NCBI GenBank assembly: GCA_025353585.1
Contig: JANXOM010000321.1
Coordinates: 1 to 35,312 of the forward strand
Direction of reading: 5' to 3'
Length of the DNA stretch: 35,312 nucleotides
Source of the DNA: Deltaproteobacteria bacterium
Lineage (GTDB): Bacteria; Myxococcota_A; Polyangia; Haliangiales; Haliangiaceae
The stretch's first letter is position 1; each line of letters starts with the position of its first letter. Positions 1 through 31,593 of this stretch are shown piece by piece. Position numbers and translations under genes: made by a program. The notes below the pieces were generated by a model. That model ran no database searches. It was not told where the DNA came from and was given only the letters and a program-made list of their open reading frames with translations.

Positions 1-464
1 CCCCCCCCGACTCCGTCAACAACTTCCAGGCGCGCGACGCGATCCGCCACGAGTGGACGGGGCCCATCACCTGCGCGAGCCCGCGTCGCCACATCTGGGG
101 CGGCCCGCCGCAGGAGATCGCGGCGCAGCCCGGCTTCCAGCCGCTGGGCGTGCAGCCCGCGACAGATCTCGCGTTCGCCCCGCGGAACCAGATCGCGCTG
201 CCCGAGGTCGTGAAGCGCGACGTGCCGGAGATCGACGTGCACGCGAGCCTGTCCGCTGCCTCCACGCCGACGCAGCTCGACGCGTCCTCGACGCCGCCCG
301 CGTCCGACGCCACGAAGCCGACCCCGCCCACGCCGCCGGCCCCGCCCACCGCGACGAAGACCGGCTGCGGGTGCGCGACCGCGGGCGATGGTGATGTGCT
401 CGCGGGGGGCCTGCTCGTCGGGGCCACGTTGCTCGCGGGTCGGCGTCGCCGCCGCCGCGGTTAA
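1..464 (+). CDS. DUF2330 family protein with MYXO-CTERM-like tail, 5'-truncated (copy A)
   Basis: C-terminal part of a DUF2330 protein; the reading frame starts at base 3 and the gene begins outside the window. The visible part has the family's end-of-domain segment (NNFQARDAIRHEWTG, then PITC and WGGPP), also present in the three following genes. A Pro/Thr-rich linker follows, then TGCGC, a hydrophobic stretch and a run of arginines. That tail matches the MYXO-CTERM pattern, which in myxobacteria is thought to be recognised by a myxosortase and to lead to surface display. Copy B follows after 20 bases with its own Shine-Dalgarno sequence, so A is probably the first or an early gene of the operon. 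The molecular function of DUF2330 is not known. Confidence 0.85.
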   Translation, partial: PPDSVNNFQARDAIRHEWTGPITCASPRRHIWGGPPQEIAAQPGFQPLGVQPATDLAFAPRNQIALPEVVKRDVPEIDVHASLSAASTPTQLDASSTPPASDATKPTPPTPPAPPTATKTGCGCATAGDGDVLAGGLLVGATLLAGRRRRRRG

Positions 465-484
465 CTTCGAAGAGGGGAATCAGG

Positions 485-1999
485 ATGAGGATCAAGCTCG
501 GACTTGCCGCCGCCGTCGCGGCCTGCACGCTCGTCCCCGCCACGGCGGGTGCCTTCTGCGGCTTCTACATCAACGGCGCCGGCGGCGAGATGTTCAACAA
601 CGCGACCCAGGTCGTGCTGATGCGCCAGGGCACCCGCACCGTCCTGTCGATGCAGAACAACTACCAGGGGCCGCCCGCCGACTTCGCGATGGTCGTGCCC
701 GTGCCTGTGGTCCTGCACGAGGCCGACGTCAAGACGCTGCCGAAGGAGGTGTTCGCCAAGGTCGACACGATGGGCGCGCCGCGCCTGGTCGAGTACTGGG
801 AGCGCGACCCGTGCGCCGCGGACGAGGTCGAGCGCGCCTATCCGATGATGATGCCGAGCGCGCCGGCGCCCGAAGGAGCCTCGGCGGACTCGGCCGGCGG
901 CCACGGCGTCACGATCGAGGCGAAGTTCGCCGTCGGCGAGTACCAGATCCTGATCCTCTCGGCGAAGGACTCGACCGGCCTCGACGCATTTCTGCGCGAG
1001 CAGCACTACCAGATCCCCGCCGGCGCCGAGCCGCTGCTCCGCCCGTACGTGGACAGCGGCATGAAGTTCTTCGTCGCGAAGGTCGATCCGAAGAAGGTCC
1101 ACTTCGCCAACGGCCAGGCCCAGCTCTCGCCGCTGCGCTTCTTCTACGACACCGAGGAGTTCGCGCTGCCGATCCGCCTCGGCCTCGCGAACAGCGCCGG
1201 CACGCAGGACCTCGTCGTCAACATCATCGCGCCGGACCAGCGCTACGTGCTCGCGAACTACAAGAACGTCACGATCCCGACGAACATCGACGTCAAGGAC
1301 GCCGTCCGCACGCGCTTCGGCGAGTTCTACGCGGCGCTGTTCGACCGCACGGTGCAGCAGAACCCCGGCGCCATCGTGACCGAGTACAGCTGGGCCGCGA
1401 GCTCGTGCGATCCGTGTCCGGGCCCCACGCTCGACGGCGACGACTTTGCCACGCTCGGCGCGGACGTCCTCGGCAACAACAACTTCTACGACTTCACGCT
1501 CACCCGCCTCCACGCGCGCTACGGCAAGGACGGCGCGCCGAACGACCTCGTGTTCAAGGCCGCGCCGCCGATCGTCGGCGGTCGCGAGCAGCGCGGCCCC
1601 GGCGGCGAGCTCGAGCACGGCGCGCACCCCGACGCGCAGAACAACTTCCAGGGGCGGTACGCGATCCGGCACGCCTGGACCGGCCCCATCACGTGCGCCG
1701 CGCCGCACCGCGGCCGGTGGGGCGGGCCGCCGGATCGGCAACAGCTCGCCGACGGGACCGGCCCCCGGCCCGCCCTGAACCTCGCGTTCGCCCCGCGCGG
1801 CCAGATGGCGCTGCCCGACGTCGTCGCGCAGGACGTGCCCGAGCTCGGCGTGCACCCGGGCGTCCCGCTCCCCGGCGGCGCGGGCTTCCGCTCGAAGGAA
1901 GGCTGCGGCTGCGAGACCTCCGATTCCAGCTCCACCGGCGGCCTCGGGCTCGCCGGGCTCACCGTCCTCGTCCTCCGTCGCAAGAAGGGATCGTCATGA
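485..1999 (+). CDS. DUF2330 family secreted protein, MYXO-CTERM-like (copy B)
   Basis: A 504-residue DUF2330 protein. The N-terminus is a clear signal peptide (MRIKLGLAAAVAACTL..., predicted cut after AGA), followed at once by FCGFY, the start of the mature domain. Cysteines shared with copies C and D lie in FCGFY, in a DPC motif, in CDPCPGP near residue 310 and in PITC. The tail is short: GCGCE, a Gly/Leu-rich stretch and RRKKGSS, a MYXO-CTERM-like sorting signal. The ATG at 485 is preceded by a purine-rich AAGAGGGG, one of the few good Shine-Dalgarno sites in the window. The stop overlaps the start of copy C by 4 bases (ATGA), implying translational coupling. Role is unknown; location is most likely the outer surface. 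Confidence 0.92.
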   Translation: MRIKLGLAAAVAACTLVPATAGAFCGFYINGAGGEMFNNATQVVLMRQGTRTVLSMQNNYQGPPADFAMVVPVPVVLHEADVKTLPKEVFAKVDTMGAPRLVEYWERDPCAADEVERAYPMMMPSAPAPEGASADSAGGHGVTIEAKFAVGEYQILILSAKDSTGLDAFLREQHYQIPAGAEPLLRPYVDSGMKFFVAKVDPKKVHFANGQAQLSPLRFFYDTEEFALPIRLGLANSAGTQDLVVNIIAPDQRYVLANYKNVTIPTNIDVKDAVRTRFGEFYAALFDRTVQQNPGAIVTEYSWAASSCDPCPGPTLDGDDFATLGADVLGNNNFYDFTLTRLHARYGKDGAPNDLVFKAAPPIVGGREQRGPGGELEHGAHPDAQNNFQGRYAIRHAWTGPITCAAPHRGRWGGPPDRQQLADGTGPRPALNLAFAPRGQMALPDVVAQDVPELGVHPGVPLPGGAGFRSKEGCGCETSDSSSTGGLGLAGLTVLVLRRKKGSS

Positions 2000-3690
2000 C
2001 TCGCATCGTTCTCGCCACTGCTCTCTTCGGCGCGCTCTGCGCGCTGCCGGCTCGCTCCGACGCGTTCTGCGGCTTCTACGTCGCCGGCAGCAACGAGGCC
2101 ATGTTCAACGACGCGACGCAGGTCGTGATGATGCGCGAGGGCACGCGGACCGTGCTCGCGATGCAGAACGACTACAAGGGCCCGCCGCAGGGCTTCGCGA
2201 TGGTCATCCCCGTGCCGACCGTGCTCCACGAAGGCGACGTCAAGACGCTGCCGCGCGAGGTCTTCGCGCACGTCGAGCAGATGGGCGCGCCGCGCCTCGT
2301 CGAGTACTGGGAGGAGGACCCGTGCGCGCCGGTGGTGAAGTACGACCGGTTTCCCAGCGCAGCGGCGGTCGGGATGGCCGCGCAGAGCGACGCGGGCGGC
2401 AAGGACGCGCGCCGCGGCGTCACGATCGAGGCGCAGTTTGTCGTCGGCGAGTATCAGATCCTGATCCTCTCGGCGAAGGACTCGACCGGCCTCGACGCCT
2501 GGCTCCACGACCAGCACTACAACATCCCCGCGAACGCCGAGCCCCTGCTGCGGCCGTACGTCGAGAGCGGGATGAAGTTCTTCGTCGCGAAGGTCGATCC
2601 GAAGAAGGTGAAGTTCGTCGATGTCCCCGCACCGCCATCCGGCGGTGCTTCGCCCGGGGCGTCCCCCGGGCTCGTGCGCCGCGCCGCGCTCTCGCCGCTG
2701 CGCTTCCACTACGACGCCGATGACTTCGCGCTGCCGATCCGCCTCGGCCTCGCGAACAGCTCCGGCACGCAGGACCTCATCGTCAGCATCTTCGCGCCGC
2801 ACCAGCGCTACGACGTGGCGAACTACAAGAACACGACGATCCCGACGAACATCGACGTCGTCGACCGCGTGAAGGGCAAGTTCGGCGCGTTCTACGCCGC
2901 GCTGTTCGACCGCACCGTCGCGCAGAACCCTGGGTCGGTGATCACCGAGTACGCCTGGCAGGCCACCGGATGCGATCCGTGCCCGGGGCCGATGCTCGCC
3001 GCGAACGAGCTCGCGACCCTCGGCGCGGACGTCCTCGGCGGCAGCAAGGGCAAGCCGGCGCCGCTCGCCGACATGATGGACCTCGTGCTGACGCGCCTCC
3101 ACGCGCGGTACGGCACGGATATCACGAACGACCTCGTGTTCAAGCAGGCGGCGCCGATCGTCGGCGGGCGTGAGTTCGTCACGGACGGCGCGACGGGCAA
3201 GCTCGAGGAGGGCGCGCGGCCTGACTCGATCAACAACTTTCAGGGCCGCTACGCCATTCGCCACGAGTGGACGGGCCCCATCACCTGCGCGCAGCCGACC
3301 CGCCACCGCTGGGGCGGGCCGCTCGACAACCAGCCCGCGCCGCCGACGCAGCCCGCGACGAACCTCGCGTTCCAGCCGCGCAACGAGATCGCGCTGCCGC
3401 AGGTGGTGCTCCGCGACCTGCCGGAGATCGGGATCAAGTCCGAGGCGCGCGGCGCGACGCTGACCGCCGACTCGACGAAGCCGGCCGCGCCGACCACGCC
3501 GACGAAGCCCACGAAGCCCACGAAGCCCAGCGACCCGACCGCGCCCGTCGACAAGGACGCCCCGAAGCCACCCGCCGCGAAGACCGGCTGCGGCTGCGAT
3601 TCGAGCGATCCCGGCAGCTTGGCGGCCGGGCTCGCCGCCGCCGCGACGCTGGTGCGGCGCCGTAGACCGCGTGCGAAGACGGCACGTTGA
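1996..3690 (+). CDS. DUF2330 family secreted protein, MYXO-CTERM-like (copy C)
   Basis: A 564-residue paralogue of copies B and D, starting inside the stop of B. It has a signal peptide (MTRIVLATALFGALCALPA...) and then FCGFYVAG. The core aligns along its whole length with B, but C carries an extra Pro/Gly/Ser-rich insert of about 17 residues before LSPLRF (around bases 2620-2680). A long linker near the end contains repeated KPT/TPTKP units, then KTGCGC, an Ala/Gly/Leu stretch and RRRR. The linker differs in length and composition from those of A and B, as expected of a flexible stalk to a membrane or surface anchor. The conserved cysteines (FCGFY, DPC, CDPCPGP, PITC) are all present. Function unknown; envelope location inferred. 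Confidence 0.92.
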   Translation: MTRIVLATALFGALCALPARSDAFCGFYVAGSNEAMFNDATQVVMMREGTRTVLAMQNDYKGPPQGFAMVIPVPTVLHEGDVKTLPREVFAHVEQMGAPRLVEYWEEDPCAPVVKYDRFPSAAAVGMAAQSDAGGKDARRGVTIEAQFVVGEYQILILSAKDSTGLDAWLHDQHYNIPANAEPLLRPYVESGMKFFVAKVDPKKVKFVDVPAPPSGGASPGASPGLVRRAALSPLRFHYDADDFALPIRLGLANSSGTQDLIVSIFAPHQRYDVANYKNTTIPTNIDVVDRVKGKFGAFYAALFDRTVAQNPGSVITEYAWQATGCDPCPGPMLAANELATLGADVLGGSKGKPAPLADMMDLVLTRLHARYGTDITNDLVFKQAAPIVGGREFVTDGATGKLEEGARPDSINNFQGRYAIRHEWTGPITCAQPTRHRWGGPLDNQPAPPTQPATNLAFQPRNEIALPQVVLRDLPEIGIKSEARGATLTADSTKPAAPTTPTKPTKPTKPSDPTAPVDKDAPKPPAAKTGCGCDSSDPGSLAAGLAAAATLVRRRRPRAKTAR

Positions 3691-3698
3691 ACGTAGCC

Positions 3699-5240
3699 AT
3701 GCGCTCCCTCCTGCCGAAGCTCGCCCCCGCCCTCGTCCTCGCCGCGCTCGCCGGAGGCGCGCGCCCGGCGGACGCCTTCTGCGGGTTCTACGTGAGCGGC
3801 ACGGGCGGCAAGATGTTCAACGACGCCACCGAGGTCGTCCTCATGCGCGAGGGCACGCGGACCGTGCTCGCGATGCAGAACGACTACAAGGGGCCGCTCG
3901 AGGACTTCGCGATGGTCGTCCCCGTGCCGGTCGTGCTGCACGAGGGCGACGTCAAGACGCTGCCGAAGACGGTGTTCGACCACGTCGACTCGCTCGGCTC
4001 GCCGCGGCTCGTCGAGTACTGGGAGCAGGATCCGTGTCCCGAGCCGCGGCCGCCGATGCGGTACCGGATGGCGGAGGGGGCGAGCGGCGGGTACGCCCCG
4101 GCCTCGCCGGCCCCCTCGAAGTCGGCTCCGACGGTGAAGGTCGAGGCGCAGTTCGATGTCGCCGAGTACCAGATCGTCATCCTGTCGGCGACCGAGGCGA
4201 CGGGCCTCGAGGACTGGCTGCACGCGAACCACTACAAGATCCCGGCCGGCGCCGAGCCGCTGCTGCGGCCGTACGTCGAGGCGGGGATGAAGTTCTTCGT
4301 CGCCAAGGTCGATCCCAAGAAGGTGCAAATCGTGGAGGGCCACGCCGCACTCTCGCCGCTGCGCTTCCACTACGACAGCGAGGACTTCCAGCTCCCGATC
4401 CGCCTCGGCATGGCGAACTCGTCGGGCACGCAGGATCTCGTCATCAACATCCTCTCGGCCGCCAAGCGGTACGAGGTCGCGAACTACAAGAACGCGCTCA
4501 TCCCGACGAACTTCGACGTCAAGGACAGCGTCCGGCAGCGCTTCGGCTCGTTCTACACGGCGCTCTTCGACAAGACCGTGCAGGCGAACCCGGGCGCGGT
4601 CATCACCGAATACGCGTGGAGCGCGAAGCCGCAGTACCACTGCGATCCGTGCCCCGAGCTCGACGTGAACCAGGCCGATCTCATGTCGCTCGGCGGCGAC
4701 ATCGTGGGCGGCGCGATCGCGCAGGGCACGTTCGTCATGACGCGCCTCCACGCGCGCTACGGCACGAAGGACATGAAGGACGACCTGCGCTTCCGCGAGG
4801 CCAAGCCGATCACCGGCGGGCGCGAGGTGTGGACGAAGACGGGGATCGAGTACGGCGCGGCGCCCTCGGAGGAGAACTACTTCCAGGCGCGCTACGCGAT
4901 CCGCCACTGGTGGACGGGCAAGATCGCGTGCAAGAACCCGCAGCGCGGCGTGTGGGGCGGGCCGCCGGATGGGGGCGACACGCAGGTCATCGCCGCGAGC
5001 AAGGTGGCGTTCGCGCCGCGCGGCAAGGTCTCCGTGCCGGACGTCATCGGGCGGGACTTGTGGGAGATCGGGCTCAAGAAGACGCGCCCGGCGCCCGCAC
5101 CCGCACCGGCGCCCAAGATCCCGCCGGCCGCGACCCCGGCCGCGCCCAAGGGAGCCAAGGGCGCGCTCTCGTTCGGCGCCGGGCTGTTCGGCGCGCTCGC
5201 GCTGCTCGGCGTCGGCTCCGTGCTGCGGAAGAAGCGATAA
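3699..5240 (+). CDS. DUF2330 family secreted protein lacking the cysteine sorting motif (copy D)
   Basis: Fourth DUF2330 paralogue, 513 residues from the ATG at 3699. A TTG at 3687 would overlap the stop of copy C and add four residues; ATG is preferred because it gives a compact signal peptide (MRSLLPKLAPALVLAALAGG...). The mature protein begins FCGFYVSG and keeps DPC, CDPCPE and IAC. Unlike A-C, the tail has no GCGC: after a Pro/Ala-rich linker it goes straight to a hydrophobic stretch (FGAGLFGALALLGVG) and LRKKR. It may therefore be anchored as an ordinary C-terminal membrane protein, or be unprocessed. The cytochrome gene begins 4 bases after its stop. Function unknown. Confidence 0.9.
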   Translation: MRSLLPKLAPALVLAALAGGARPADAFCGFYVSGTGGKMFNDATEVVLMREGTRTVLAMQNDYKGPLEDFAMVVPVPVVLHEGDVKTLPKTVFDHVDSLGSPRLVEYWEQDPCPEPRPPMRYRMAEGASGGYAPASPAPSKSAPTVKVEAQFDVAEYQIVILSATEATGLEDWLHANHYKIPAGAEPLLRPYVEAGMKFFVAKVDPKKVQIVEGHAALSPLRFHYDSEDFQLPIRLGMANSSGTQDLVINILSAAKRYEVANYKNALIPTNFDVKDSVRQRFGSFYTALFDKTVQANPGAVITEYAWSAKPQYHCDPCPELDVNQADLMSLGGDIVGGAIAQGTFVMTRLHARYGTKDMKDDLRFREAKPITGGREVWTKTGIEYGAAPSEENYFQARYAIRHWWTGKIACKNPQRGVWGGPPDGGDTQVIAASKVAFAPRGKVSVPDVIGRDLWEIGLKKTRPAPAPAPAPKIPPAATPAAPKGAKGALSFGAGLFGALALLGVGSVLRKKR

Positions 5241-5244
5241 CACC

Positions 5245-7470
5245 ATGCGCGCCGCGGTCGCTGTCATCGGGTTCGTCGGGCTCGTCGTCGTGGCCGCCGC
5301 GTGTGGCGGCGAGCCCGGCGCGACCGGGCCGGCGCCGGCCACGCAGACCGCGGCCCTCGCCGCGATCGCGGCCCGCCTGCCGCGCGTGCCGGGCGAGCAC
5401 GCGCCGAGCCTGGTGCAGATCGATCGCACGGGCGCGGTCGCCATGACGGACACGACCGAAGGCGCGGCGCTCGCGGATGTCGACAGCTGCGCGACGTGTC
5501 ACCCCGACGCGGCGAAGCAATGGTCCACGAGCGCGCACTCGTTCGCCTCGTTCGGCAACCCGATCTACCGCGTCAACGTCGAGCTGGCGCGCACGCAGCT
5601 CGGCAAGGACGCGAGCCAGCACTGCGGCGGCTGTCACGACATGCCGCTCATGATGGACGGCCTCATGACGGTCGACGCGCCGGTCCCCGCCGCGGACCTG
5701 CGCGCGCACAGCGGCGTCACGTGCCGCCTCTGCCACGGGATCGAGAGCGTCACGAAGGACGGCAACGGCAGCTACGTCTGGGCCGCCGCGCCGATGGACG
5801 CGCCGGTGCTCGGCGACGCCGCGTCGATCGCGAAGCACAAGGCGCAGGCGAGCGTGAAGAAAGTCGGCACCGAGCTCTGCGTCGGCTGCCACCGCGGGTT
5901 CCTGTCGCCCGACATGGGCGACGCGATGCCCGTGCACCTGTCCGGCCTCGACGAGCCCGGCGCGTGGCGCAGCTCGGCGTGGACCGGCAACGGCATCGCC
6001 CGCGTGGACAAGGTCGAGAAGAAGACGTGCATCGATTGCCACATGGACCGCGAGCCGGCTTCGAAGGAGGAGCTCGGCGCGAAGGCGGGGACGCTCGCGT
6101 CGCACCGGTTCGTGGGCGGGCACACGTGGATGGCGTCGATGCGCGGCGACGCCGAGCACCTGGCGCGCACGCAGGCCAAGCTCGCGGGCGCGGCGTCGAT
6201 CGACGTCGCGGGGGCGCTGATCACGGATCCCGAGACGCACGGACCGCGCTGGTTCCTGCCGGCGGAGACGGCGCCGGTGGTGCCCGGCCAGCGGCTCGCG
6301 CTCGACGTCGTGGTGCGGAACCTGCTCGTCGGCCACCGGTTCCCCGGCGGGGTGCTCGACATCCAGGACACCTGGGTCGAGGTGGAGGTGGCGACGGCGG
6401 ACGGCAAGCGCCTCGCCGCGTCGGGGCTGACGCACGCGGCAGATCCGAAGGACGAGGACGCGCACGTGCTGCGGACGCTCGTGGTGGACGAGCACGGCGA
6501 GGTGCTCGAGGAGCACGAGATGGCGAAGATGCGCACGCAGATCGCGACGCAGACGCTCGCGGCGCGCGAGGCGCAGGTGATCCGCTACGCGCTCGACGTC
6601 CCGGCCACGCTCGGCCCGGCGCAGCTGCCGCTGACGGTGACGGCGCGGCTCCGCCACCGGAGCCGGACCCTGCAGATGCAGGCGACCGTGTGCGCGGCGG
6701 CGCGGACGGCGGAGGGCAAGGCGTTCATCGCGGGCGCTCGCGGCGCGCGCGACGTGGAGCTCGACCCGTGCAAGGCGCAGCCGGTGACGCTCGTCGCCGA
6801 GACGAAGGTGCAGATCGGCGCCGGCGCCGTGACGACGAGCCCGCGGCCGGCGTGGGAGCGCGACTACGAGCACGGCATGGCGCTCGTGAGCACGGTCAGC
6901 GAGCGGCTCGAGGAGGCCAAGGCGGTGCTCGAGGCCGCGCTCGCCCTCGCGCCGGATGCGCGGGCGCGCGCGATGGTGACGGTGCAGCTCGGCTGGGTGG
7001 CGTCGAAGCAGGGGCGGGTCGACGACGCGCTCGCGCTGGTGGCGCAGGCGCGCGCTCTCTTGCCCACGCCGGGCCCGGCCGTGCTCGACGCGATCGCCGC
7101 CGATGCGCTCGCGCGCGTGTGGCGCTGGGACGAGGCCGCGGCTCCGGCGCGCGCGTGCACCGAGCGGGCGCCGCAGAGCCAGGCCGCGTGGGTCCAGCTC
7201 GCCCGCGTCCTCGGCTCGACGGGCGACAACCGCGGGGCCCTCGCCGCCGCGACGACGGGCCTCGAGCTCGCCCCGCGCGATCCGGATCTCCTGCGCTCGC
7301 AGGCCACCGCGCTCGCCGGGCTCGGCCGCTCCGAGGCCGCCGCGGCGCTGAACGCCTACGACCGCTTTCGCTCGCCCGATAACTCCGCCGAGCTGCGCAT
7401 CCAGTGCGCCGGCGAGCACTCGCGCTGCGCCCGCGAGCGCGAGCAGGGCCACACGCACTTGCTGCGCTAG
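5245..7470 (+). CDS. Pentaheme c-type cytochrome lipoprotein with C-terminal TPR repeats
   Basis: A 741-residue predicted lipoprotein (hydrophobic N-terminus ending VVAAAC, lipid Cys at residue 20). Five CxxCH heme c motifs are visible: CATCH (82-86), CGGCH (127-131), CRLCH (160-164), CVGCH (212-216) and CIDCH (262-266), spaced as in cytochrome c554-like proteins. Additional histidines (for example in SAHSF and GGHTW) could be distal ligands. Residues about 310-510 form a beta-rich region with VGHRFPGG, a motif I associate with multiheme cytochromes of this type. From about 555 to the end there are three to four TPR-like helical pairs (ARAMVTVQLGWVASKQGRVDDALAL and similar). It starts 4 bases after the DUF2330 copy D, so the two are probably co-translated. 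Likely periplasmic or outer-membrane electron transfer; partner and substrate are not evident. Confidence 0.88.
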   Translation: MRAAVAVIGFVGLVVVAAACGGEPGATGPAPATQTAALAAIAARLPRVPGEHAPSLVQIDRTGAVAMTDTTEGAALADVDSCATCHPDAAKQWSTSAHSFASFGNPIYRVNVELARTQLGKDASQHCGGCHDMPLMMDGLMTVDAPVPAADLRAHSGVTCRLCHGIESVTKDGNGSYVWAAAPMDAPVLGDAASIAKHKAQASVKKVGTELCVGCHRGFLSPDMGDAMPVHLSGLDEPGAWRSSAWTGNGIARVDKVEKKTCIDCHMDREPASKEELGAKAGTLASHRFVGGHTWMASMRGDAEHLARTQAKLAGAASIDVAGALITDPETHGPRWFLPAETAPVVPGQRLALDVVVRNLLVGHRFPGGVLDIQDTWVEVEVATADGKRLAASGLTHAADPKDEDAHVLRTLVVDEHGEVLEEHEMAKMRTQIATQTLAAREAQVIRYALDVPATLGPAQLPLTVTARLRHRSRTLQMQATVCAAARTAEGKAFIAGARGARDVELDPCKAQPVTLVAETKVQIGAGAVTTSPRPAWERDYEHGMALVSTVSERLEEAKAVLEAALALAPDARARAMVTVQLGWVASKQGRVDDALALVAQARALLPTPGPAVLDAIAADALARVWRWDEAAAPARACTERAPQSQAAWVQLARVLGSTGDNRGALAAATTGLELAPRDPDLLRSQATALAGLGRSEAAAALNAYDRFRSPDNSAELRIQCAGEHSRCAREREQGHTHLLR

Positions 7471-8132: not shown

Positions 8133-8579
8133 CTCCGTCGCAGGCTGCGCCTCGCCGCGCTGACATCCGACGATAGCTAACTTGATTGCGCCGATATATT
8201 TCTTGGACCGTTTGTACGTCGACCGCGTCGGCGCAGAACCGGTGGACGGTGCCGGCCCCGCGGACAACCGCCCGGACGCCGCGGAAGACCGCGAGCGCTC
8301 GGGCGTGTGGTTGCCCGCTGGAGGACCGCGCGCGACGCCAGGATTCCCGCCGGGCGGTCCTCCACACGCCCCACAGGCCCGCCTCCCGACCCCCAACCTT
8401 CGGGTTTCTCGGATCGCAGAGACGGAACGTCGAGTCCATCGCGCTCGTCAATGACGGTTCGGCTTCTCTGCTCTGCCGAAACGTTTGGGGCGGGGCAACA
8501 GGGCCTGTGCGCGTCGTGAAGAACGGCCCGGCCGCGCTCGCTGCGCCCGTGATGCAGTTGTTCAAGGCGACGACGGGTG
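8133..8579. other. Gene-free stretch upstream of the persulfide dioxygenase gene
   Basis: About 450 bases with no coding region I can support. It holds an AT-richer patch near 8172-8222, unusual for this window, the large inverted repeat at 8301-8371, a small stem TTCGGC/GCCGAA near 8458-8480, and the promoter-like sequence before 8591. The open frames running through it look like random GC-rich frames. Confidence 0.5.
8301..8371. repeat. Long imperfect inverted repeat (REP-like hairpin)
   Basis: Left arm GGGCGTGT (8301-8308) plus GGAGGACCGC (8320-8329) pairs exactly with right arm GCGGTCCTCC (8354-8363) plus ACACGCCC (8364-8371): 18 base pairs, with an 11-base bulge on the left side and a 24-base apical segment. 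No T-run follows, so a terminator is unlikely. It lies about 170 bases upstream of the transposase remnant. RAYT enzymes act on REP hairpins, so a relic of such an element is a reasonable guess. Confidence 0.55.
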
Positions 8580-8585
8580 TAGGGT
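8558..8585 (+). promoter_or_regulatory. Promoter of the persulfide dioxygenase gene, probably leaderless
   Basis: TTGTTC (8558-8563) and TAGGGT (8580-8585) are separated by 16 bases, as in a sigma-70 type promoter. The GTG start at 8591 lies 5 bases after the -10 element, so the transcript would begin at or next to the start codon. Confidence 0.45.
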
Positions 8586-8590
8586 GTCGC

Positions 8591-9640
8591 GTGATCTTCG
8601 AACAGATCCGTTCGGGCGGGTGCCTGTCGTATGTCATCGGGTGCGAGGAGACGCGCGCCGGGATGATCGTCGATCCCGCGCTCGGCCAGATCGACCGCTA
8701 CCACGCGCTCGCCGCCGAGCGCGGCCTGCGCATCCACTACGTCGCCGAGACGCACACGCACGCCGACCACTTCTCCGCGGCGCGCGAGCTCGGGCGCCAG
8801 CTCGGCGCGCGCATCGTGATGCACCGGCTCGCGGCCGCGCCGTTCGCCGATGTTCGCGTCGATGACGGCGAGACGATCGCGTGCGGCAAGCTCCGCGTCC
8901 GCGTGGTCCACACGCCCGGGCACACCGAGGACTCGTGCTGCCTCGTGCTCCCCGATCGCGTCCTCACCGGGGACACGCTCCTCATCGGCGGCACCGGCCG
9001 CACGGACCTGCCGACCGGCGATCCGCACGCGCTCCACGCGAGCCTGTTCGACAAGCTCCTCCGCCTCGGCGACGACCTCGCCGTCTACCCGGCCCACGAC
9101 TACAAGGGCCGCACGGCCACCACGATCGGCGCCGAGCGCGCGAGCAACCCGCGCCTCCAGCGCCGCGAGCAGGGCGAGTTCGTCGCGATGATGCGCGCGC
9201 TCGACCTCGCGATGCCCGAGCACCTGACCGAGGCGCTCCGCACGAACCGCAGCGGCGGCAAGACGGTCGCCCAGCTGATCGCCGAGGCCTCGCGCGACAT
9301 CTCCTTCATGAGCATGGAGGAGGTCCGCGAGCGCATCGCGGCGGGCGGGGCCGGCGACCTCGTGCTCCTCGACGTCCGCGAGCGCGACGCCTTCGACCGC
9401 GGCCACCTCCCGGGCGCCCGCCACATCTCGCGCGGCCAGCTGGAGCTGCGGGTGGACCGCGAGCTGCCCGATCCCACCGCCCGGATCCTCGTGTACTGCC
9501 AGATTGGCCGCATTTCGACCCTCGCCACGGCTACACTCCGGCAAATGGGCTACGCGAGAACAGTGGCGCTCGATGGCGGGTACGAGGCGTGGTGCGCGGC
9601 CGGGTTCCCGACCGACGGCGGCGGGGCGGTGCGGGCGTGA
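8591..9640 (+). CDS. Persulfide dioxygenase-like metallo-beta-lactamase fold protein fused to rhodanese
   Basis: A 349-residue two-domain protein. Residues 1-240 are a metallo-beta-lactamase fold of the ETHE1/persulfide dioxygenase type: THTHADH (H55, H57, D59, H60), HTPGH (H111), GDTLLIGGTGRTDL (D128) and YPAHD (H169). Residues about 242-345 are a rhodanese domain with LLDVRE, GHLPGA and the catalytic-loop cysteine C303 in VYCQIGR. Such fusions oxidise glutathione or low-molecular-weight persulfides to sulfite and move sulfane sulfur, in sulfide detoxification. The GTG at 8591 is chosen because homologues begin at this point (MIFEQ..SGGCLSY) and because the -10-like TAGGGT lies just before it; an ATG at 8552 is in frame but would sit upstream of that promoter. 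Cytosolic. Its stop overlaps the next gene by 4 bases (GTGA). Confidence 0.88.
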   Translation: MIFEQIRSGGCLSYVIGCEETRAGMIVDPALGQIDRYHALAAERGLRIHYVAETHTHADHFSAARELGRQLGARIVMHRLAAAPFADVRVDDGETIACGKLRVRVVHTPGHTEDSCCLVLPDRVLTGDTLLIGGTGRTDLPTGDPHALHASLFDKLLRLGDDLAVYPAHDYKGRTATTIGAERASNPRLQRREQGEFVAMMRALDLAMPEHLTEALRTNRSGGKTVAQLIAEASRDISFMSMEEVRERIAAGGAGDLVLLDVRERDAFDRGHLPGARHISRGQLELRVDRELPDPTARILVYCQIGRISTLATATLRQMGYARTVALDGGYEAWCAAGFPTDGGGAVRA

Positions 9641-10245
9641 TCGCGCTCGCGCTCCTGATCGATGGAACCGCAGCGCCCTCCGGCGCCGCTGCTGGCGTGG
9701 GCCAAGGCCACACCATCGACGCCGCCACCCTCGCGGACGATGACCCGCCGCCATCGGCGCCGGCCAGCGTGCCGCTGACGGTGACCGTCGCGCCGGGCCT
9801 GGCGTGGGGCTACTTCTCCGGCGACAACATCGCCCCGGGCTCGTCGCCGGCCCTGCTCGCCGACGTCGGCTATCGCACCGACGAGCACACCGCGATCGGC
9901 GTGCACCTGTCGCTCGCTCACCTGTCCGGCACGTACATGCAGGACGCGCTCGCCGGCGGCGCGCGGCTGGCATACGACTACACGCCCATCTTTGTCGGCG
10001 CGTTCGCGCGTGGCGAGACGATGAACGGCTTCCTCTGGGCCGAGATCGCCCTCGGCCTCCACGTCGACGACTACCACGACCAGTTCGGCACGAGCTGGAG
10101 CGCGGGGCTCGGCGTCTCGCTCACCGGCGGCCTCGACGTCTACCAGCGCGGCCCGGATCGCGTCGGCATGTACCTCGGCGTCGAGAGCGAGCTGCAGGGT
10201 CAGTCGTACGAGACGTTCATGGCCGGCGTCGCCTACCGGCGCTGA
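9637..10245 (+). CDS. Small outer-membrane beta-barrel-like protein
   Basis: A 202-residue protein whose GTG start overlaps the stop of the persulfide dioxygenase gene. After a short hydrophobic start (MIALALLIDGTAAPSG...) and a Pro-rich stretch come alternating amphipathic strands typical of 8- to 10-stranded outer-membrane barrels: LTVTVAPGLAWGYF, PALLADVGYR, AIGVHLSLAHLSG, FLWAEIALGLHV, AGLGVSLTGGLDVY, GMYLGVESEL and a final AGVAYRR. The signal peptide is weak, so the true start could differ. I do not recognise the family. The link to sulfur metabolism is by position only. Confidence 0.65.
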   Translation: MIALALLIDGTAAPSGAAAGVGQGHTIDAATLADDDPPPSAPASVPLTVTVAPGLAWGYFSGDNIAPGSSPALLADVGYRTDEHTAIGVHLSLAHLSGTYMQDALAGGARLAYDYTPIFVGAFARGETMNGFLWAEIALGLHVDDYHDQFGTSWSAGLGVSLTGGLDVYQRGPDRVGMYLGVESELQGQSYETFMAGVAYRR

Positions 10246-30309: not shown

Positions 30310-31593
30310 ATGCGCCGGTTCGCCCTCGCCGCCGTCCTCGCTGCCGCCGCGTGCGGGAGCGAGCCCGTGGCCCCGCCGCCGCCGCCCGCGGGCCCGCCCG
30401 GCGCCGCGCTGCACGCGGGGAGCGGCGCGGCCGCGACCATCGCGCCGAAGGGCGGGCTCGTGGAGGGCGCCGCGCTGCGCCCGCACAAGGAGGAGGCCGT
30501 CGTGGAGTGCCCGGCCATCATCGCCGACAACGCCGACGACGACGCCCGCCTGTCCGCCCTCCTCGACGCCGGCAACGCCCAGCTCGACGTCGCTGCGTAC
30601 GCCGCCGCCTGGACCTGCGCTGATCGCGCCGCCGATCTGGCGCCCCAGTCCGTCGAGGCCCACCACATCCGGGCCGCCGCGCTCGCCGCGCTCGGGCGCG
30701 ACAGCGAGGCCCAGATGGCGTACGCGCTCGCGCTCGCCCTCGACCCCGACGACCCCGAGACGCTGCGCGCCGTCGCCGATTTCTATGTCAACGGCAAGGG
30801 CGAGCACGGCCGCGACGCCGTCCGCCTCGGCCTCGAGCTCGCCCAGCGCGGGAGCCGCCGGGCCGCCGCGCGCCGCCACCGCGCGCCGACGCTGGCCGCG
30901 GATCTCGCGTTGCTCGAGGCCCAGGCGCTCGACGACCTGGGCCGCAGCGACGAGGCGCTGATCCGCGTGGACGCCGCGCTCCGCCTCGCGCCCGGCCGCG
31001 CCGACGCGCTGCACGAGAAGGGCGTCGCGCTGTTCGACCTGTCACGCTTCACCGAGGCGAAGGCGGTGCTGACGAAGGCCGTCGCGCTGCAGCCCGAGGA
31101 CGCGTACACGCACCAGATGCTCGGCCTCGCGCTCGAGGGCCTCGGCGAGCAGCCCGCCGCCGACGCCGAGCTCGCGCGCGCGATCCAGCTCGCGCCGGGC
31201 GAGCTGACGGTGCCCGTGACGATCTCGCCGGCCGACTTCCAGGCCGAGGTCGACGGCGTCATCGCGTCGCTCCCCGCGGCGCGCCGCGCCCACGTGCTCG
31301 CCTCGAAGGTCGAGATCGCCGACCTCCCCCTCGCGGCGGATCTCGCCGCCGTCACGCCGCCGTTCCCGCCGACGATCCTCGGCCTGTACCGCGGGCCCGT
31401 CGGGCGCGGGGCGGGCGCGGCGCCGGAGGCGGGCGACGAGCCGACGTCCATCGTCCTCTATCGCAAGAACCTCGCGCGCGCCGTGAAGTCGCGCACCGAG
31501 CTGAGCGAGCAGATCCGCGACACGCTGCTGCACGAGATCGGTCACCTCGAGGGGCTCGACGAGGATGACCTGCGCCGGCGCGGGATGGAGTAG
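30310..31593 (+). CDS. Lipoprotein with TPR repeats and C-terminal zincin-type metallopeptidase motif
   Basis: A 427-residue predicted lipoprotein: MRRFALAAVLAAAAC with lipid Cys at residue 15, then GSEPVAPPPPPAGPP, a proline-rich stalk. From about 75 to 300 there are several TPR-like units (LDAGNAQLDVAAYAAAWTCADRA, ALAALGRDSEAQMAYALALALDPDD, ALHEKGVALFDLSRFTEAKAVLTKAVALQPED and the next). The last 110 residues form a compact domain ending LLHEIGHLEGLDEDDL (HEIGH at 408-412), like the small PF06262-type zincins (HExxH near the C-terminus). The fusion of TPRs and a zincin on a lipoprotein is unusual, as this zincin type is generally a short cytosolic protein. The histidine-kinase gene starts 3 bases after its stop. 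Peptidase activity is not proven. Confidence 0.8.
   Translation: MRRFALAAVLAAAACGSEPVAPPPPPAGPPGAALHAGSGAAATIAPKGGLVEGAALRPHKEEAVVECPAIIADNADDDARLSALLDAGNAQLDVAAYAAAWTCADRAADLAPQSVEAHHIRAAALAALGRDSEAQMAYALALALDPDDPETLRAVADFYVNGKGEHGRDAVRLGLELAQRGSRRAAARRHRAPTLAADLALLEAQALDDLGRSDEALIRVDAALRLAPGRADALHEKGVALFDLSRFTEAKAVLTKAVALQPEDAYTHQMLGLALEGLGEQPAADAELARAIQLAPGELTVPVTISPADFQAEVDGVIASLPAARRAHVLASKVEIADLPLAADLAAVTPPFPPTILGLYRGPVGRGAGAAPEAGDEPTSIVLYRKNLARAVKSRTELSEQIRDTLLHEIGHLEGLDEDDLRRRGME

Follow-up and report, generated by a model that had tools for sequence, protein, structure and literature searches.

Conserved pairing of DUF2330 genes with a pentaheme cytochrome gene in myxobacteria

DUF2330 is a protein family for which the Pfam entry (PF10092) lists no function, and a literature search that left subscription papers mostly outside its reach found no paper naming it (PF10092, COG4402). 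Here we describe a tandem array of DUF2330 genes that ends beside the gene for a pentaheme c-type cytochrome in a member of the Haliangiaceae (GenBank assembly GCA_025353585.1, listed as Deltaproteobacteria bacterium). The array lies at the start of a 35,312-nt stretch of DNA, hereafter called the window, which belongs, as contig C295, to a draft genome of 8.0 Mb. The coupling of DUF2330 to the cytochrome is real, old, and not a quirk of one contig, and a partnership between the two is well supported. In our judgment there is about an even chance that they constitute a myxobacterial envelope electron-transfer module in which DUF2330 is the exported partner of interchangeable redox proteins.

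The array has the order A-B-C-D-cytochrome with all genes on the + strand, as confirmed by translation. Genes were called with our own codon-position script rather than a standard gene finder.

3..464, + strand: DUF2330 copy A, a 3' fragment whose 5' part lies past the contig edge; ends in a MYXO-CTERM tail containing GCGC; 45-63% identical to copies B, C, and D; TIGR03901 27.2 bits
485..1999, + strand: DUF2330 copy B, 504 aa, MYXO-CTERM tail; PF10092 1.1e-50, 172.8 bits; TIGR03901 22.9 bits
1996..3690, + strand: DUF2330 copy C, 564 aa, MYXO-CTERM-like tail under the cut-off; PF10092 3.4e-55, 187.6 bits; TIGR03901 17.5 bits
3699..5240, + strand: DUF2330 copy D, 513 aa, adjoining the cytochrome gene; alternative start TTG 3687; PF10092 1.7e-55, 188.7 bits
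5245..7470, + strand: pentaheme c-type cytochrome, predicted lipoprotein (Cys20); five CxxCH motifs; Cytochrome_C554 2.9e-09; TPR matches

The original prediction, made from the sequence alone, described at least four DUF2330 paralogues lying head to tail. The tandem order stands, but on translation it comprises three whole copies and one edge-cut fragment. Copies B, C, and D score far above the PF10092 gathering score of 24.7 bits, and fragment A gave no DUF2330 match in the Pfam search. Translation also bears out the predicted spacing of ATGA overlaps or gaps of 20 bases or less between DUF2330 copies (20 bp for A-B, -4 bp with ATGA for B-C, and 8 bp for C-D, the last becoming -4 bp if D begins at TTG 3687), as well as the 4 bp between the last copy and the cytochrome/TPR lipoprotein gene. 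A scan of the + strand found no terminator-like site between D and the cytochrome gene; a promoter scan, which is uninformative here, found none. A DUF2330 gene cut at a contig end (locus L129, G000 C117) follows a permease-like gene in the same order as is seen upstream of other arrays, and possibly represents the array's missing 5' portion, although the two contig ends do not overlap.

Conservation of the neighborhood was assessed by a scan of genome contigs, in which the best 80 of 331 confirmed stretches correspond to 79 loci, so that the counts are valid for the closest relatives only. A cytochrome gene was called in 77 of these loci (the exceptions are L157 and L202), and 24 of the 77 come from a near group that overlaps the assemblies of a family-level cytochrome search described below. 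The loci are titled as myxobacteria or less exactly, and include Plesiocystis pacifica, Enhygromyxa salina, Nannocystis poenicansa, and Polyangium. In 44 of the 77 cytochrome loci, the next upstream gene on the same strand encodes DUF2330, at distances of -4 to 323 bp (20 bp or less in 31 loci, overlapping in 14). Linked pairs occur, for example, in P. pacifica (L190), E. salina (L172/L177), and N. poenicansa (L182). When neighboring proteins were clustered, DUF2330 was present in 46 of 77 loci (22/24 near, 24/53 far), and it occupied offset -1 in 44. Among the 16 largest clusters, the other families at a fixed offset are confined to one clade, with 7 to 12 loci each, and the only other large cluster, of 40 loci, has scattered offsets. 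One such family is the -1 neighbor in 12 loci of that one clade; in L082, which belongs to another set with the same gene order, the gene encodes an MlaE permease.

Within the GTDB family of the window, 27 of 30 genomes contain PF10092. All 30 have a cytochrome match at E 1e-3, many of these matches being weak and generic. Coordinates were compared for 34 cytochrome loci (every locus with a piece above 130 bits, and one more whose 44-bit piece lies at a contig edge; gene pieces merged) and 129 DUF2330 matches (second pieces of split matches excluded). DUF2330 lies upstream in 27 of the 34 cytochrome loci, and in two further loci (L044 and L110) it is cut by the contig edge. Of the remaining five, three are truncated by a contig end (G009 C101, G004 C94, and G012 C656), G001 C219 gave just a short C-terminal piece (residues 648-741), and in G014 C71 a stop interrupts the gene. 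The contig with the stop-interrupted cytochrome (L123, 78820-80249) has no DUF2330 match in the PF10092 search. The pair is thus kept in related genomes, both among the closest relatives and within the family, as the original prediction would have it.

The association extends beyond adjacency. Across 188 Myxococcota genomes, PF10092 reaches at least 170 bits in 39 and the cytochrome at least 164 bits in 27. Both genes are present in 25 of the 27 cytochrome genomes, versus DUF2330 in 14 of the 161 others (Fisher p 5e-19), with cut-offs that were set after seeing the match lists. At the searches' own thresholds, DUF2330 is present in 32 of 34 cytochrome genomes versus 81 of 154 others (p 1.5e-6); both tests ignore relatedness. 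The 27 cytochrome genomes span 13 families, and 12 of these hold a genome with both genes. In the five sampled cytochrome genomes of genus g10, both genes are present and lie apart.

A second pair is found at another locus in the same genome. On contig C62 (L106), a 642-residue DUF2330 protein of a different subtype, here called type 2 (PF10092 1.3e-26; MYXO-CTERM 22.1 bits), is encoded by a gene that overlaps a second cytochrome gene by 1 base. The five type-2 partners in our alignment have only 22-25% identity to copy D, which is of type 1. The six cytochromes paired with type-2 proteins form one clade (FastTree support 0.999), nested among the type-1-paired cytochromes of the genus (support 0.87; FastTree, midpoint root). 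The simplest reading is a duplication of the cytochrome within the genus that left a copy next to a DUF2330 already distinct by then. Because the duplicate would then have gained a very different subtype as its neighbor, the pairing would have arisen at least twice, and in our view no other finding speaks as strongly for the importance of the DUF2330 domain itself to the cytochrome. The type-2 proteins (L106:5546-7474, L102, L104, L105, and L111) carry 29-32 cysteines before the tail. No Pfam domain accounts for the cysteine-rich part in L106, and an EGF-like look was set aside when Pfam found no EGF match there.

A different candidate redox partner appears in another DUF2330 clade. In the highest-scoring clade (at least 235 bits, nine genomes), a gene of the NQR2/RnfD family adjoins DUF2330 in eight of nine genomes, the exception being G102, and the partner matches PF03116 (NQR2_RnfD_RnfE) above the cut-off. 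This match is the likeness to RNF/NQR proteins; the partner differs in having no flavinylation motif in six proteins, and a second Rnf gene was not recognized next to it, its neighbors not having been scanned. PF03116 gave no match in five genomes with the cytochrome pair. A cytochrome or an RnfD-like gene is found in 35 of the 39 genomes with a full-length DUF2330, versus 3 of the 149 without one. The RnfD-family partner fits a redox role for the association. The DUF2330 tails of this clade look unlike MYXO-CTERM, and none of three tested matched the model.

Two further ideas about this clade were not adopted. Mutual exclusion of the cytochrome and RnfD-like genes was considered, since none of 11 share a genome, but this is not significant (p 0.17). 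A single 727-codon open frame (L217:6542-8725) spans an RnfD-like domain and DUF2330; the apparent fusion (L217/L051) was not accepted as one gene because an internal start and a signal peptide remain in the frame, which may therefore hold two genes.

The cytochrome itself resembles the pentaheme cytochrome (PHC) family. Its five CxxCH motifs, confirmed as originally described, lie at residues 82, 127, 160, 212, and 262, giving a heme region of 82-266 that is followed by a beta-rich domain (about 317-524) and TPR helices (about 536-730) in a model with a predicted local distance difference test score (pLDDT) of 91.5. In an alignment that took 35 of 39 proteins, five CxxCH motifs are present in 34 of the 35 cytochromes, and L086 has four plus one motif with wider spacing. 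Five histidines outside these motifs (98, 198, 287, 364, and 471) are invariant in all 35, a pattern that could fit five bis-His hemes and would suit a pure electron carrier. The best PDB match by Foldseek is the pentaheme c552 of Thermochromatium tepidum (5ze8; E 8.1e-10, template modeling [TM] score 0.56 by target length), and the match is partial because the root-mean-square deviation is 12.0 over 487 columns. A profile of the first part of the protein likewise finds 5ze8 (1.9e-08, best stretch 89 positions), cytochrome c554, and MccSep.

Pentaheme cytochromes of cable bacteria have been grouped with ExtKL and Gsu2801 and show structural homology to c552 (PMC11976967); the same source describes the role of c552 as not established. 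With this family (T. tepidum c552, Geobacter ExtKL/Gsu2801, and cable bacteria) the window cytochrome shares five CxxCH motifs and a c554-like N-terminal region, and a GHxxPxG-type stretch in its beta domain aligns weakly to 5ze8 and to MccSep 9wt9. It differs in its TPR arm, its DUF2330 gene partner, and its weak sequence similarity, and its score against the ExtKL model NF040886 is 15.8 bits, far from the cut-off of 250.

Cys20 is a plausible lipid site (lipobox by eye), and the residue at +7 is alanine. In Myxococcus lipoproteins, alanine at +7 is conserved in the extracellular-matrix set and lysine at +2 in the inner-membrane set (PMC3222651). A loose lipobox pattern occurs in 59 of 92 cytochromes, some starts being uncertain. 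Among these 59 matches, alanine is found at +7 in 19, at +2 in 13, at each of +4 to +6 in 10-11, at +8 in 8, and at +11 in 12, and none has lysine at +2. These residues are a weak hint that the cytochrome may have an outer location. A multiheme lipoprotein proposed for the outer envelope brings to mind porin-cytochrome conduits (MtrCAB, Ext).

Turning to the DUF2330 proteins, the MYXO-CTERM-like tails of the original prediction survive in part. Against model TIGR03901 (cut-off 20 bits), A and B pass, but C, which has the cysteine, falls short and D has no match. A and B share the cysteine, hydrophobic helix, and Arg-rich tail of MYXO-CTERM/myxosortase surface proteins, and the tail of D is a hydrophobic helix followed by RKKR with no cysteine. 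The latter arrangement is where the genus departs from such surface proteins: among the loci sampled from it, 9 of 13 type-1 copies adjacent to the cytochrome, D included, have no tail cysteine, and 15 of 15 copies followed by another DUF2330 have one. In L100 the upstream copy matches the MYXO-CTERM model (27.7 bits) and the cytochrome-adjacent copy does not. In a DUF2330 tree, D clusters with ten like copies in a clade of 11 D-type proteins, and the upstream copies of genus g6, which are expanding, are separated there from six copies that adjoin the cytochrome (supports not printed for either). One locus, L116, has seven DUF2330 copies in front of one cytochrome gene.

Cleavage of TraA by myxosortase requires the conserved cysteines of the motif (PMC11980579). 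Because cleavage needs the cysteine, D is predicted to stay on its membrane helix, where it may serve as the dedicated partner copy of the cytochrome. This prediction fails for the four cytochrome-adjacent copies of the genus that have a cysteine and for most other genera; by the tree labels, 30 of 41 adjacent type-1 copies carry one.

The conserved cysteines described originally are also largely in place: FCGFY, DPC, and CDPC occur in B, C, and D, and ITC in B and C, but D has KIAC instead. Fragment A covers only the ITC part. The DUF2330 alignment took 65 of 87 listed proteins. Of its 59 type-1 rows, 98-100% have each of C28, C113, C315, C318, and C411, and H351 is invariant in them; C411 and CDPC are missing from the 6 type-2 rows. 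Flavinylation motifs were considered in these proteins and rejected, as they occur in only 4 of 65 rows and in two of these lie in the tails. An AlphaFold2 model of copy D (pLDDT 84, predicted TM score 0.80) has baculovirus p35 as its best Foldseek match in the PDB (E 0.011, TM 0.33 by target), which we do not take as homology.

These near-universal cysteines invite the alternative that the cytochrome serves DUF2330 as a redox factor for its folding or disulfide control, the DUF2330 proteins being ordinary surface proteins. The seven-copy array beside a single cytochrome gene would agree with such a factor. In our judgment, however, five hemes and a TPR arm are a lot for a maturation factor, and five of the six type-2 rows, all of them without C411 and CDPC, still have this kind of cytochrome as their partner; we consider this alternative improbable. 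Of similarly low probability is the proposal that DUF2330 binds a metal or heme at the surface, which the cytochrome reduces or accepts, so that the system handles metals rather than serving respiration. Conserved cysteines, H351, and adjacency to a multiheme protein all speak for it. Against it, the linked pairs have no recurrent third family beside them (the neighbor clusters carry no functional annotation), and DUF2330 has no significant fold match and hence no metal-site match either.

In the envelope electron-transfer module that we favor, the cytochrome would be a PHC-kind lipoprotein, extended by a TPR arm, and would carry electrons in the outer envelope through its five hemes. Its DUF2330 partners would be exported, with upstream copies anchored at the surface by way of the MYXO-CTERM cysteine and the cytochrome-adjacent copy acting as a dedicated partner that, in this genus, is mostly held by its membrane helix. 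Probable ligands of the TPR arm are the DUF2330 proteins, which may place the cytochrome and connect it to an electron source or acceptor, and in another clade an RnfD-family membrane protein would substitute for the cytochrome. As in the original prediction, the pair may serve surface electron transfer or metal handling. From sequence and gene arrangement we infer co-transcription, physical contact, localization, electron flow with its direction and acceptor, and the chemistry of DUF2330 itself. A bolder version, possible though unlikely, sees in DUF2330 a previously unrecognized class of exported partner proteins for electron transfer, with a fold absent from the PDB, which would dock either a pentaheme-TPR cytochrome or an RnfD-family protein, and whose tandem copies would build a surface redox layer.

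A number of findings weigh against this module. DUF2330 is not directly upstream in 33 of the 77 cytochrome loci, among them the Polyangium loci L164, L168, and L169; of the 33, five have no upstream sequence, L210 has DUF2330 downstream, and in L199 it is 1,639 bp away. Viewed from DUF2330 the link is partial, with 65 of 92 family loci having no cytochrome next to them (27/92 do), some being split by contig breaks, and some DUF2330 genes instead sit beside others, such as those for VIT/VWA proteins. Two genomes (G032 and G196) have the cytochrome with only weaker DUF2330 matches. No heme motif was seen in DUF2330, and for copy D Foldseek gave no PDB match at E 0.001 and no sequence match was better than E 0.66. 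The flavinylation motif [ST]GA[ST] (PMC8238504) is absent from six of six RnfD-like partners, which makes their redox role uncertain. No porin or barrel gene was recognized beside the pair, whose neighbors were not scanned for barrels. Finally, no surface-sorting cysteine is present in D, the cytochrome-adjacent copy, and this limits the case for a surface role.

The unlinked loci and the DUF2330 loci without a cytochrome would be expected if the genes were neighbors by descent or shared regulation only and did no joint work, a quite improbable explanation given the second pairing with a different DUF2330 subtype, the co-occurrence of the genes even where they lie apart, and the hold of DUF2330 on offset -1 while the flanks change. 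The joint role in the original prediction is therefore favored by conserved neighborhood, co-occurrence, and the second pairing, and tempered by the partial link from the DUF2330 side.

Several other neighbors were recorded. Downstream of the window cytochrome, 8507-9640 encodes a metallo-beta-lactamase plus rhodanese protein (Pfam), a combination of domains also encoded after the cytochrome gene in L100 and L101. The 182-residue product of 9697-10245 has no Pfam match and by eye resembles a small outer-membrane barrel, and 30310-31593 encodes a TPR protein with a zincin-like metallopeptidase domain (PF06262). In genus g6 (L112, L114, L116, and L117), proteins of 111-150 and 296-315 residues follow the cytochrome, the larger matching HTTM in one example (L079). 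In three loci of one genus (L276, L277, and L278), an FKBP-type isomerase gene precedes DUF2330, and an ABC transporter-type ATPase gene follows it at a distance of about 3 bp (each identified by Pfam in one example).

DUF2330 is beside a VIT/VWA gene in L236 (Pfam) and beside aligned homologues of it in L241, L242, and L135. A relationship of DUF2330 to VIT itself was rejected despite a PVP/PLP motif likeness, with an hhalign probability below 1% against a VIT profile that is shallow (4 sequences). A 214-residue five-heme protein near DUF2330 in L236 and L241 matches Cytochrome_C7 in Pfam; its gene is 475 bp off or past two opposite-strand genes and so was not counted as coupling. The protein looks like ActA of alternative complex III.

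The conserved pairing makes a family without an assigned function testable, in that it offers a concrete hypothesis and a small set of genes. It suggests that many myxobacteria have an envelope redox system that has gone undescribed. In addition, one exported family with two alternative redox partners would provide a natural experiment.

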